A stretch of 64,000 nucleotides of DNA from Ignavibacteriota bacterium. Lineage in GTDB: Bacteria > Bacteroidota > Ignavibacteria > Ignavibacteriales > Melioribacteraceae. Positions within the stretch are counted from its first letter, which is position 1. Every line of letters begins with the position of its first letter. Positions 39,011 through 43,010 of the stretch are shown here, piece after piece. Under the pieces are notes generated by a model, which saw only the letters and a list, made by a program, of their open reading frames with translations, did not search any database and was not told where the DNA came from. Position numbers and translations under genes: made by a program. The stretch is taken from assembly GCA_002698995.1 (NCBI GenBank), contig PAAX01000023.1, positions 62,001-126,000 on the forward strand. The letters run 5' to 3'.

Positions 39011-39562
39011 TTATTGATATAAATTTTCATTCTCATTTTCCAAGTCCCATTTTAACGGATTTTGTTCAATATATTTTCTGATGTTAAAAAGTTCGGTTTC
39101 ATTTCTTATTATTCTATCGTAAAAAGATCTCTGCCATTTGAAGTTTGGATAACCGGTTTGGTGTATTTGTTTTGTTACTGCAGATTTGAATGAACCGATT
39201 ATGTTGGATAATGAAGGTGTATTGGTGGATGAATCATTTTGTTTTACATTATTCTGCTGTAAAGACGGGGCATGCCCCGTCTCTACTGTAGAATTCAATA
39301 TTATTATTCCATGCAAATGGTTTGGCATGATTACATAATAATCTAGTTCGACCATTGGGTAATGATTAATTATATTTTCCCAACAAGTTTCTGCAATTTT
39401 TCCTAAATCGTTTAACATCATTTTATACGATTCTATTCTTCCAAAATAATGTTTATGATCTTTTGTATTGATAGTAATATAATACCACCAAGGTTTTGAA
39501 TAATCCCACTCCTTTAATCTTGCTGATTCTATTTTGTATTTCTTTATTTCCTTATCGTACAT
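39011..39562 (-). CDS. REP-associated tyrosine transposase (RAYT) / Y1 transposase
   Basis: A 183-residue HUH-type transposase. The metal motif HLH is in VIMPNHLHGIIIL near 79-91, the likely nucleophile Tyr in RSFYDRIIRNETEL near 147-160, and the N-terminus (KPWWYYITINTKDHKHYFG) is typical of the Y1_Tnp/RAYT family that mobilises REP palindromes. Between the HUH core and the C-terminal part a stretch VETGHAPSLQQ is encoded by a REP-like palindrome (see next feature). The frame is intact from ATG to stop, so the protein is potentially active. Confidence 0.87.
   Translation of the reverse strand: MYDKEIKKYKIESARLKEWDYSKPWWYYITINTKDHKHYFGRIESYKMMLNDLGKIAETCWENIINHYPMVELDYYVIMPNHLHGIIILNSTVETGHAPSLQQNNVKQNDSSTNTPSLSNIIGSFKSAVTKQIHQTGYPNFKWQRSFYDRIIRNETELFNIRKYIEQNPLKWDLENENENLYQ
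39259..39286. repeat. REP-like palindrome inside the RAYT coding sequence
   Basis: A 28-bp sequence, perfectly palindromic over its inner 20 bases (39263-39282, AGACGGGGCATGCCCCGTCT) with outer arms GTAA / CTAC that differ from a full palindrome by one base. Its sequence on the minus strand starts GTAGAGACGG, the same start as the palindrome at 42731. It is read in frame as VETGHAPSL within the transposase. Confidence 0.85.
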
Positions 39563-39658: not shown

Positions 39659-40969
39659 TTAATTCCTTCGTCCAATGCAAATAAACCCTGTATCTGAATT
39701 ACCATATTTAGCGCCGACTGATATCGCTATGTTCTCTGTTATAGCTGCTCCAAAGAAATTTATATTAGTTCCATCGCCTATTTTGAAATTTTTCCATCTT
39801 TTTCCATTATATACTGCTACATTTCCATTTAGCCCTGCAGCAACAATATTATTTTCACCCGTGCCAATTATTTCTATATAAAATTTGTTATTTAGTTCAC
39901 TCTGTTCTATCCATTCTTTATTTATTCCTTTTACAATTCCATATCCAGCTATATAAACACTTAAACCATTTTTACTCCAGATTCCTCTAAAGAATTTATT
40001 ATTTAGTTCTAGTTTTTGAAGTGAATAAATTGAAGTCATATAATAAACTGTATTTGTTGGAGGAACTGATAAATAATATTCATATTCTTTTGTTAATATA
40101 TTCTCAACTCCAAAGATGTGACTTATATTATTATCTGTTATTCCGTTTAACTCAGTTTCTATCTTACTCCAACTATTTCCGTTGTAATGTGCTATATTTC
40201 CTTTTTTTCCAATTGCATAAAAATCATTTGTTGATTTTCCCCAAATTGCATTTAAACCAAATCTTTCTTCCCATGAGAAACTTTCGTGTATTAACTTATA
40301 TTGGTCGGAACCATTTCTAAAAACTGCTGCTTGAACATTGCTTGTTATAATGTAATCCCCATTTTCAAACTTAAATACAGAGATACATTCAGATGAGATT
40401 TTCCCAGCATTTGGCTGATCAGGATCAATATAAAAAAATATTCTTTTCAACTCCCACTCATTCCCATCCCAATGGACTGCATTGTAGGGCTGCTGCCATA
40501 CTCCGTTACTGTCATAGGTGTGTGTATCTTCTGTAAATATTTCTCCCACTGCCCAGATGTCATTCTCATTTATTATCGCTACATCACTTAAAATACTGCT
40601 GCTGCCTCCGCCAAACTCAAAAGTTTCCCAAGTAAAGTTATGGCTTGTTGTATCCATCGTTGTAAATTCAGTTTGTGTACCTATTCCATCTTGGTTTGTT
40701 AGTTTTATTGTGTAGGTTTTGTTTGGCAGTAATTCATCAAGATAAACAAGAGTATCTTTCAAATATAACTGTGTTCTGTATTCATCATTTAAGTAAACAC
40801 TTCCAAGTTTATTTGCTTGGTCGTTTGCTTTTACATCAATCCATACTTCAGTACAAGATTTATCAAGTACCTCAAGAGTAAGATTTGCTTCTGTTGGTGG
40901 TTTGGTTGGTTCTTCTTTGCATGAGAAAAAGAAGAATGATAAAAGAATTATGAGAATTAATTTTTTCAT
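39659..40969 (-). CDS. Beta-propeller-like lipoprotein, paralogue A (intact)
   Basis: A 436-residue lipoprotein. Signal MKKLILIILLSFFFFSC has lipobox FFSC. Residues 25-110 form a fibronectin type III-like domain (NLTLEVLDKSCTEVWIDVKA to YTIKLTNQDGIG). The rest (about 115-436) is built of repeats with a xxIWGKSTNDFYAIG and IAHYNGNSWSKIE pattern, typical of an exported family in Ignavibacteria and Chlorobi that public databases often mislabel as glucosyltransferase. These repeats fit a YCF48/BNR-like propeller. No catalytic residues are visible. Probably an outer-surface or periplasmic protein of unknown function. Two broken paralogues lie upstream. Confidence 0.75.
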   Translation of the reverse strand: MKKLILIILLSFFFFSCKEEPTKPPTEANLTLEVLDKSCTEVWIDVKANDQANKLGSVYLNDEYRTQLYLKDTLVYLDELLPNKTYTIKLTNQDGIGTQTEFTTMDTTSHNFTWETFEFGGGSSSILSDVAIINENDIWAVGEIFTEDTHTYDSNGVWQQPYNAVHWDGNEWELKRIFFYIDPDQPNAGKISSECISVFKFENGDYIITSNVQAAVFRNGSDQYKLIHESFSWEERFGLNAIWGKSTNDFYAIGKKGNIAHYNGNSWSKIETELNGITDNNISHIFGVENILTKEYEYYLSVPPTNTVYYMTSIYSLQKLELNNKFFRGIWSKNGLSVYIAGYGIVKGINKEWIEQSELNNKFYIEIIGTGENNIVAAGLNGNVAVYNGKRWKNFKIGDGTNINFFGAAITENIAISVGAKYGNSDTGFICIGRRN

Positions 40970-41009
40970 TAAGTAGTTTCCAGAATTTAATTTTATTGTA
41001 ATTATGGTT

Positions 41010-41031
41010 GGGACAAGTCGCGACTTGTCCC
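41010..41031. repeat. Perfect 22-bp palindrome, copy 1
   Basis: GGGACAAGTCG followed by its exact reverse complement. It lies 41 bp upstream of the paralogue A start, within the duplicated segment 40829-41055. The second copy is at 42561-42582. Confidence 0.85.
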
Positions 41032-41063
41032 TACGGTTATGAAATTTATTTTAACAATATTCC

Positions 41064-42358: not shown

Positions 42359-42520
42359 TTAGATTTTTTTGCTAATTACTTTTATATCAATCCATACTTC
42401 AGTACAAGATTTATCAAGTACCTCAAGAGTAAGATTTGTTTCTGTTTGTGGTTTTGTTGGTTCTTCTTTGCATGAGAAAAAGAGGATTGATAAAAGAATT
42501 GAGAGAATTAGCTTTTTCAT
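42359..42520 (-). pseudogene. Truncated N-terminal copy of the lipoprotein gene (paralogue A fragment)
   Basis: ATG 42520 opens a frame of 53 residues: MKKLILSILLSILFFSCKEE, then TKPQTETNLTLEVLDKSC and TEVWIDIKVISKKI. The first 45 or so residues match paralogue A (39659-40969) with a few changes; the frame then ends at TAA 42359 without any propeller repeats. It carries an intact lipoprotein signal and its own copy of the leader, so a short lipopeptide could be made, but a broken duplicate is the simplest reading. Confidence 0.8.
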
Positions 42521-42606
42521 TAAGTAGCTTCCAGAATTTAATTTTATTGTAATTATGGTTGGGACAAGTCGCGACTTGTCCCTACGTTTATGAAATTTAT
42601 CTTAAC
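42380..42606. repeat. Duplicated 227-bp segment, copy 2 (copy 1 at 40829-41055)
   Basis: The segment runs from inside the N-terminal domain, through the start codon, into about 85 bp of leader including the 22-bp palindrome. The two copies have equal length and differ only at scattered bases, for example CGGTTATG versus CGTTTATG. Both ends fall in the same relative place, so this is a direct duplication 1.55 kb apart, followed by divergence. Confidence 0.85.
42561..42582. repeat. Perfect 22-bp palindrome, copy 2
   Basis: The same 22 bases as at 41010-41031, each half GGGACAAGTCG and its complement, carried along in the duplicated leader. Confidence 0.85.
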
Positions 42607-42730
42607 AGAGCTTCTAAATCACAGTAATATGGTTAACATATCATTTTATTGAGTTTGAAATATATGATTTGATTTTAAGATGAGCAAGTGCGGTTATTGT
42701 TTTTGCATTATAAACTTCCGTAGAGACGTG

Positions 42731-42759
42731 GTAGAGACGTAGCGGCGCTATGTCTCTAC
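42731..42759. repeat. REP-like palindrome of GTAGAGAC type
   Basis: GTAGAGAC at 42731-42738 pairs with GTCTCTAC at 42752-42759 across TAGCG/CGCTA, giving a nearly perfect 29-bp dyad. An extra half-copy (GTAGAGACGTG) starts at 42720. The arms match those of the palindrome inside the RAYT gene, so this element is a plausible substrate for that transposase. Confidence 0.75.
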
Positions 42760-42789: not shown

Positions 42790-42877
42790 GTTATGCCGGA
42801 ATGGTTTTACTTTTTGAAACCAATACCGGTATCTCTGTTTTGAGATTCCGGCATTCGCTTCGCTCAGCCGGAATGAC
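42790..42877. repeat. 88-bp direct repeat, copy 1
   Basis: Begins GTTATGCCGGAATGG and ends GCCGGAATGAC. By eye, two bases differ from copy 2 at 42923-43010. The ends are imperfect inverted repeats (GTTATGCCGG / CCGGAATGAC), and several CCGG dyads lie inside, which is the look of a small non-autonomous mobile element. No gene lies in 42521-43073. Confidence 0.85.
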
Positions 42878-42922: not shown

Positions 42923-43010
42923 GTTATGCCGGATTGGTTTTACTTTTTGAAACCAATACCGGTATCTCTGTTTTGAGATTCCGGCATTCGCTTTGCTCAG
43001 CCGGAATGAC
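42923..43010. repeat. 88-bp direct repeat, copy 2
   Basis: The second copy of the element at 42790, with GGATTGG in place of GGAATGG and CGCTTTGC in place of CGCTTCGC. The copies are 45 bp apart (133-bp period) and copy 2 ends 63 bp after the glmM stop on the facing strand. Confidence 0.85.

Follow-up and report, generated by a model that had tools for sequence, protein, structure and literature searches.

A RAYT/TnpAREP-type HUH tyrosine transposase gene on the minus strand of the window, the 64,000-nucleotide stretch of Ignavibacteriota DNA analyzed here, carries within its coding sequence an in-frame REP-type palindrome. Palindromes occupy the same linker in most members of its subfamily that were sampled, where stem positions change in pairs, in-gene cores resemble the REPs flanking their own loci, and some cores are present at low copy number. 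With moderate confidence, we read the in-gene REP of subclass 2.4 (RAYT group 4) TnpAREP as a hairpin that is inherited in place and kept palindromic, and that would serve the gene as a cognate, built-in seed copy. The trait itself was described in 2018 (PMC6006769), and the window gene is a further example of it; what we add are counts in a new sample, in-place inheritance, paired changes, and the low copy number of some cores. A term search of the PMC6006769 text returned no covariation test, and a literature search on in-frame REPs within RAYT genes, with most subscription journals outside its scope, yielded no description beyond that paper.

An in-frame palindrome in the linker of a RAYT-type transposase

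The 183-residue protein encoded at positions 39011–39562 (minus strand) was assigned by profile and fold matches. It scored 58.4 bits (E 7e-16) against NCBIfam NF047646 (REP-associated tyrosine transposase) and 19.6 bits against Pfam PF01797, reaching neither the cut-off of 80 of the former nor that of 23 of the latter. Its best match among solved structures by profile was 4er8, the E. coli TnpAREP on a REP hairpin, which also headed the fold search (E 1.9e-6), followed by the TnpA proteins of ISDra2 and IS608. The predicted fold relates the protein to REP-associated tyrosine transposases. The HUH motif, NHLHG (residues 81–85; 39308–39322, minus strand), lies ahead of the palindrome on a β-strand modeled at residues 82–89, and both H82 and H84 are invariant in 62 sequences. 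In the same set W143 is invariant and Q144 nearly so, as are Y, I and N, and nearly P, of YIEQNP (residues 164–169). Y164 (39071–39073, minus strand), 80 residues from H84 and likewise invariant, is likely the catalytic tyrosine, judging by the YIxNNP motif of PMC6006769.

The structure model, computed from the 62 aligned sequences, has a mean pLDDT of 86. Confidence is low in the linker loop that joins the HUH strand to the following helix (residues 90–117; 39212–39295, minus strand), where the ten-residue blocks from residue 91, which cover the palindrome-coded peptide, score 62, 49 and 77, against 91–98 for the core blocks; the palindrome-bearing loop is unstructured in the model. The palindrome occupies positions 39259–39286 (no strand assigned), its plus strand reading GTAAAGACGGGGCATGCCCCGTCTCTAC. 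As the initial annotation had stated, it is 28 bp long with a perfect inner 20 bp, the single mismatch among the 14 pairs falling at the fourth, and its coding strand, GTAGAGACGGGGCATGCCCCGTCTTTAC, is translated as VETGHAPSL without a break in the frame of ORF 39011–39562. The assignment as a REP-type palindrome standing in frame in a RAYT gene also holds: a GTAG foot is present on the coding strand, the other foot, TTAC, is one base off CTAC, and the element sits in the loop. Among relatives with a linker palindrome, 67 of 139 have both REP feet (double foot). The arm start given in the annotation, GTAGAGACG, applies to the right arm alone, read on the minus strand, the left arm on the plus strand being GTAAAGACG.

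The palindrome is far from chance. No match to it within 3 mismatches appeared in 100 dinucleotide shuffles of the window, and the 56-nt stretch containing it folds as single-stranded DNA at −12 kcal/mol, compared with a mean of −3.3 (sd 1.4) for 200 shuffles (z −6.1). No T run follows the stem, and a role as a terminator was rejected on this ground. A hairpin in the mRNA or in single-stranded DNA might slow translation or bind the enzyme, limiting transposase production, and the stem does lie within the predicted fold of the whole mRNA (z −2.3). Such a regulatory role is nevertheless very improbable in our judgment, given that mid-gene is a poor site for initiation control, that the stem has no T run behind it, and that the REPs near many gene starts would serve better.

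Relationship to TnpAY1 subclass 2.4

According to Quentin et al. (2018; PMC6006769), subclass 2.4 took in all 100 RAYT group 4 sequences and has, as a unique feature, in-frame REPs within tnpAREP genes, located between HuH and Y and suggested to affect the protein little; double-foot REPs of the form GT[AG]G...C[TC]AC are one of its two REP types. The window gene has in common with this subclass the HUH motif (NHLH, with L where the motif table, NH[IFV]H, has I, F or V), the WQ pair, a YIxxNP motif (YIEQNP, with Q in place of N at the fourth position of YIxNNP), a long HuH–Y distance (80 residues, against a median of 88), and the in-frame REP between HuH and Y. The family studied here is likewise scattered over many phyla, and many of its members have double-foot REPs. 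The large majority of subclass 2.4 have REPs within 1 kb of the gene (PMC6006769), whereas no palindrome with an arm of at least 11 was found within 1 kb of the window gene, the nearest lying 1.4 kb off and having another core. Because the source speaks of a "large majority" only, the missing flanking REP is compatible with membership of the subclass.

The E. coli TnpAREP (4ER8), which has the fold of the window protein and is its top structure match by both profile and fold, belongs to a different subclass, 2.2 (RAYT group 2), and a linker palindrome is absent from the other-group RAYTs scored, which come from the window's phylum. The TnpA proteins of IS200/IS605 (IS608, ISDra2) are hairpin-recognizing HUH enzymes of the same fold; in these elements the hairpins lie near the element ends and are not known to lie within the transposase gene.

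Occurrence across relatives

Across 164 unique relatives from many phyla, obtained by merging two sets that together comprised 172 loci and dropping ORFs that were exactly identical, 139 have a linker palindrome, which contradicts the single self-insertion proposed in the initial annotation. In the first set, 76 of 92 family RAYT loci have a linker palindrome with a net arm of at least 9; this set consists of own-genome loci, places with long matches and some shorter ones, with many short fragments left out. The corresponding rate was 0.8% in codon-shuffled linkers and 4.8% in 775 other same-length windows of the same open frames, a control that includes open-frame parts ahead of the likely start codon. 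The second set, drawn from public genomes and partly repeating loci of the first, gave 70 of 80, with record titles naming Ignavibacteria, Bacteroidetes, Cyanobacteria, Chloroflexi, Patescibacteria, a Nitrosomonas and others. Among 30 other-group RAYT loci of the same phylum, none of the 21 scored by an HMM-based parse has a linker palindrome, the remaining 9 having no HMM hit and no score; an earlier regular-expression parse, superseded by the HMM-based one, covered 14 of the 30 and also returned none. The expectation that the stretch would be missing from most RAYTs thus holds for other groups only and fails within the subfamily.

The same genome encodes two further full RAYTs of the window gene's kind. 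At one of them (L002; C31:259623–263084), the identical 28-mer GTAGGGACAACTCATGAGTTGTCCCTAC stands upstream of the gene, within the linker and downstream, and its core is found 12 times in exact form across the genome, three times at this locus. The three identical 28-mers and the copy total suggest that the REP family of L002 may have been active recently. The third own-genome RAYT has two palindromes in its linker and, at the 5′ end, another that is related.

Some linkers contain other additions. In two (L065 and L146), a different in-frame stretch (PATAGQVA and LPAGRQG) lies near the center of the in-gene palindrome, as though other elements could insert at the hairpin tip. In five others (L140, L142, L175, L182 and L183), short tandem peptide repeats, such as GTGRDAAS three times or QSHL many times, adjoin the palindrome arms or are made from them, pointing to tandem growth in the same loop.

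Pairing is kept while letters and peptide change

Palindromic DNA is retained in the linker while the peptide varies. The palindrome cores differ between relatives (for instance GGGGCATGCCCC, CCCGATCGGG, TCGCCGCGGCGA, AACTCATGAGTT and CGAAAATTTTCG), as do the encoded peptides, and a conserved peptide motif was rejected for this reason. The initial annotation had named a peptide conserved without palindromic DNA as the outcome that would count against it; the reverse was seen, with palindromy kept and the peptide changing. GTAG-footed palindromes (n = 93) are read in one frame in 72 cases, in a second frame in 21 and in the third in none; in that third frame the GTAG foot would hold the stop TAG.

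Changes were compared in path-disjoint pairs closer than 1.2 changes per column. Distances come from a quick tree that leaves out the linker and has 65 open inner branches out of 161. Palindrome phase agrees in 9/9 pairs at up to 0.5 changes per column, in 16/24 at 0.5–0.8 and in 9/13 at 0.8–1.2, compared with 38% of random pairs. Because phase differs in 13 of 51 pairs, replacement or re-insertion of linker palindromes does occur; those 13 are not comparable for stem changes. In the 38 comparable pairs, 392 stem positions are unchanged, 55 changed on both sides and remain paired, 37 changed on one side, and 2 changed on both sides and are unpaired, a tally in which paired changes are favored by the selection of pairs for having palindromes. 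Identity is 0.84 in the palindrome versus 0.71 in the rest of the gene, and is higher in the palindrome in 34 of the 38 pairs. When 60 path-disjoint pairs were taken without selection for palindromes, both members had one in 46, one member in 11 and neither in 3. Under simulated neutral decay to an equivalent divergence, 18% of the palindromes remained.

The published view is that of a tolerated insertion (PMC6006769, PMC3733652), in which REPs would keep landing in a flexible loop, with turnover, and the copies would be neutral passengers. The unstructured loop of the model accords with it, as do the in-frame REPs in loops of other proteins of the same genomes, the two palindromes found in 8 of 92 linkers, the use of two frames, and the pairs that differ in phase. 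Close relatives, however, all keep the phase and mostly differ by paired single changes, the presence of the palindrome in 139 of 164 relatives exceeds the survival in the decay simulation, and some cores occur once per assembled genome, so that no resident source family is seen for them. Taken together, we consider tolerated insertion with turnover a possible but rather unlikely account. The intragenic GTAG and CGTC REPs and the RPE of Rickettsia (PMC3733652) are, like the palindromes described here, in-frame palindromes in coding sequences; those described in that source lie in varied host genes, whereas here most of one transposase subfamily carries them in one loop.

In-gene palindromes resemble their own flanking REPs

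In-gene palindromes are closer to their own flanking REPs than to the REPs flanking the nearest relative's gene. Both kinds are present at 80 of the 164 loci, where the identity of the in-gene core was 0.77 to the best own flank, 0.66 to the nearest relative's flank and 0.47 to permuted flanks; the own flank was the better match in 46 loci and the worse in 27, with 7 ties (Wilcoxon p 0.0008, sign test p 0.03), meaning that the nearest relative's flank beats the own flank in 27 of 73 untied loci. In an initial sample of 48 loci, the corresponding values were 0.72 for the own flank and 0.47 for permuted ones. Of 15 loci whose linker lacks a palindrome, 13 also have flanking ones. The core GACT(C/T)GCCGCGGC(G/A)AGTC was found at 24 sites, 6 of which fall at RAYT linker coordinates, the assignment of L321–L336 being made by coordinates. 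In the five genomes that hold both an in-gene and further copies of this core, 12 of the 14 other copies share the base-pair variant of the in-gene one, with two of the five genomes disagreeing.

This likeness bears on the possibility that palindromy is maintained by mutation, without use, through template switching in the hairpin at replication that would repair mismatches between the arms. Template switching is reported to fix the base pairing of existing stems (PMC8794818) and would act on any palindrome. It would, however, leave unexplained the likeness of the in-gene core to its own flanking and genomic copies, and in one case pairs have been lost from a near-copy of the window's core that lies in a different gene of this genome. 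We therefore regard mutational upkeep as improbable.

Copy number and other sites of the cores

No second exact copy of the window's core, AGACGGGGCATGCCCCGTCT, occurs in the assembled 4.23-Mb genome, a result valid for the assembled contigs alone, given that the first 129 bases of contig C30 (L005) match window positions 39135–39008 at 95% and represent the 3′ end of a second gene copy whose linker is unassembled. Two near-copies are present, one with 1 mismatch and one with 2. The C30 likeness ends 3 bases beyond the stop codon, a possible sign that the gene was copied whole. For the window copy, recent insertion from a resident repeat family finds no support in the assembled contigs, where the core has no second exact match, a negative made less complete by the C30 gene copy. 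The TTTAC foot, which the window copy has in common with the near-copy at C24:208290, was dropped as a sign of direct copying, the variant being found in other RAYTs too.

In five relatives, 23 exact GTAGAGAC-N12-GTCTCTAC sites were found, of which 7 lie in RAYT linkers, and for 5 of these 7 the linker holds the sole copy of its 28-mer among the 23 sites. In Cyclobacterium, one site of the wider pattern was present among the matches listed, and it lies within the RAYT locus. Across 79 genomes, GACGCCCGATCGGGCGTC occurs at 6 sites, one each in 6 genomes: four in RAYT linkers (one in a broken gene), one at a RAYT 5′ end and one elsewhere. The sequence GACGGGGCATGCCCCGTC, the window's core, has 13 sites in 8 genomes. 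Of these, 4 fall in RAYT linkers (one within a gene fragment) and 1 next to a RAYT, whereas 7 are read in frame in a loop of the type IX secretion sorting domain and 1 lies in no long ORF. Some genomes do have many copies, with at least 51 sites of a general pattern in Planktothrix and at least 54 in Adonisia.

REP palindromes also stand in frame in type IX secretion sorting-domain proteins, repeatedly at the same loop, after "IEYTIP" and before "NVTLKVYDILG" (C24:310562, C17:67297 and C24:208290 in the own genome), and in a second loop, "NNYGFEIQR...QWEK" (C21:32047, C24:194061 and C36:107). These come from 70 of the 134 sorting domains in the genome that were fetched, mostly the best-scoring and longest, of which 57 were parsed. 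Corresponding sites in relatives (L306 and L309–L314) were found in domains recognized by eye. The encoded peptides, VETGHAPSL and VGTTHELSL, are the same as in RAYTs. Of the 7 copies of one core found in such loops, 6 belong to a single relative (G037); five of these share an orientation and the sixth is reversed, suggesting more than one insertion. A literature search for REPs in sorting-domain loops returned nothing fitting. The REPs in sorting-domain and other loops speak against the built-in hairpin, in that tolerance alone brings some REPs to such places.

Other repeats in the window

An intergenic REP-type palindrome at 42731–42759 (no strand assigned), to which the initial annotation had likened the in-gene one, shares its outer arm and differs in its core, TAGCGGCGCTA, which is of another class and resembles palindromes both in and beside a different RAYT of the same genome. 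A further REP-type palindrome, with the core AAGTCGCGACTT, lies at 41007–41034 (no strand assigned) and has a second window copy at 42558–42585; other places in the genome hold 8 exact copies with a GTAG foot. A direct repeat of 232 nt (94% alike; 40825–41056 and 42376–42607, 1551 nt apart) covers the start of a gene that appears lipoprotein-like by eye, together with its upstream REP. Another of 88 nt (98% alike; 42790–42877 and 42923–43010) lies near the palindromes at 42720–42759 and resembles a small repeat element.

A proposed built-in hairpin and its implications

In the reading that we favor, the palindrome would probably have entered the gene as an insertion that the loop could tolerate, given the similar in-frame palindromes in tolerant loops of other proteins, and its peptide would probably do little harm at this place. 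It would then have been inherited in place with the gene, its core letters drifting while pairing was kept. Whenever the gene becomes single-stranded, as on the lagging strand, its palindrome could fold into a hairpin that the gene's own enzyme may recognize and process. Wherever it moved, the gene would in this way always carry a cognate REP as a seed copy, and the presumed advantage of a built-in copy lies there. Binding of the linker hairpin by the enzyme is suggested by analogy with other TnpAREP groups (PMC8266576), and it is plausible, on the same analogy, that the palindrome is a substrate of the RAYT enzyme, as the initial annotation supposed. For two TnpAREP enzymes of another group, a mismatch in the stem strongly lowers cleavage (PMC8266576). 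That the hairpin has stayed near-perfect and cognate, while often being rare, is in our inference better accounted for by use, in the simplest case as a substrate that the gene carries along in its own sequence.

The subfamily bears on how REPs remain linked to their transposase and how new REP families arise. We tentatively propose, as something short of probable, that the hairpin is no passenger repeat and instead a standing, selected part of this subfamily: a cognate hairpin within the coding sequence that would co-evolve with enzyme specificity, be the sole copy in some genomes, and seed REP families after moves to a new host. With a likely cognate hairpin in the gene itself, the subfamily offers natural enzyme–substrate pairs in one reading frame, well over 100 in our sample and with many cores, and recognition rules could be read from the sequence of such pairs. 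It is also an example of coding sequence in which a DNA structure is preserved as the encoded peptide changes.
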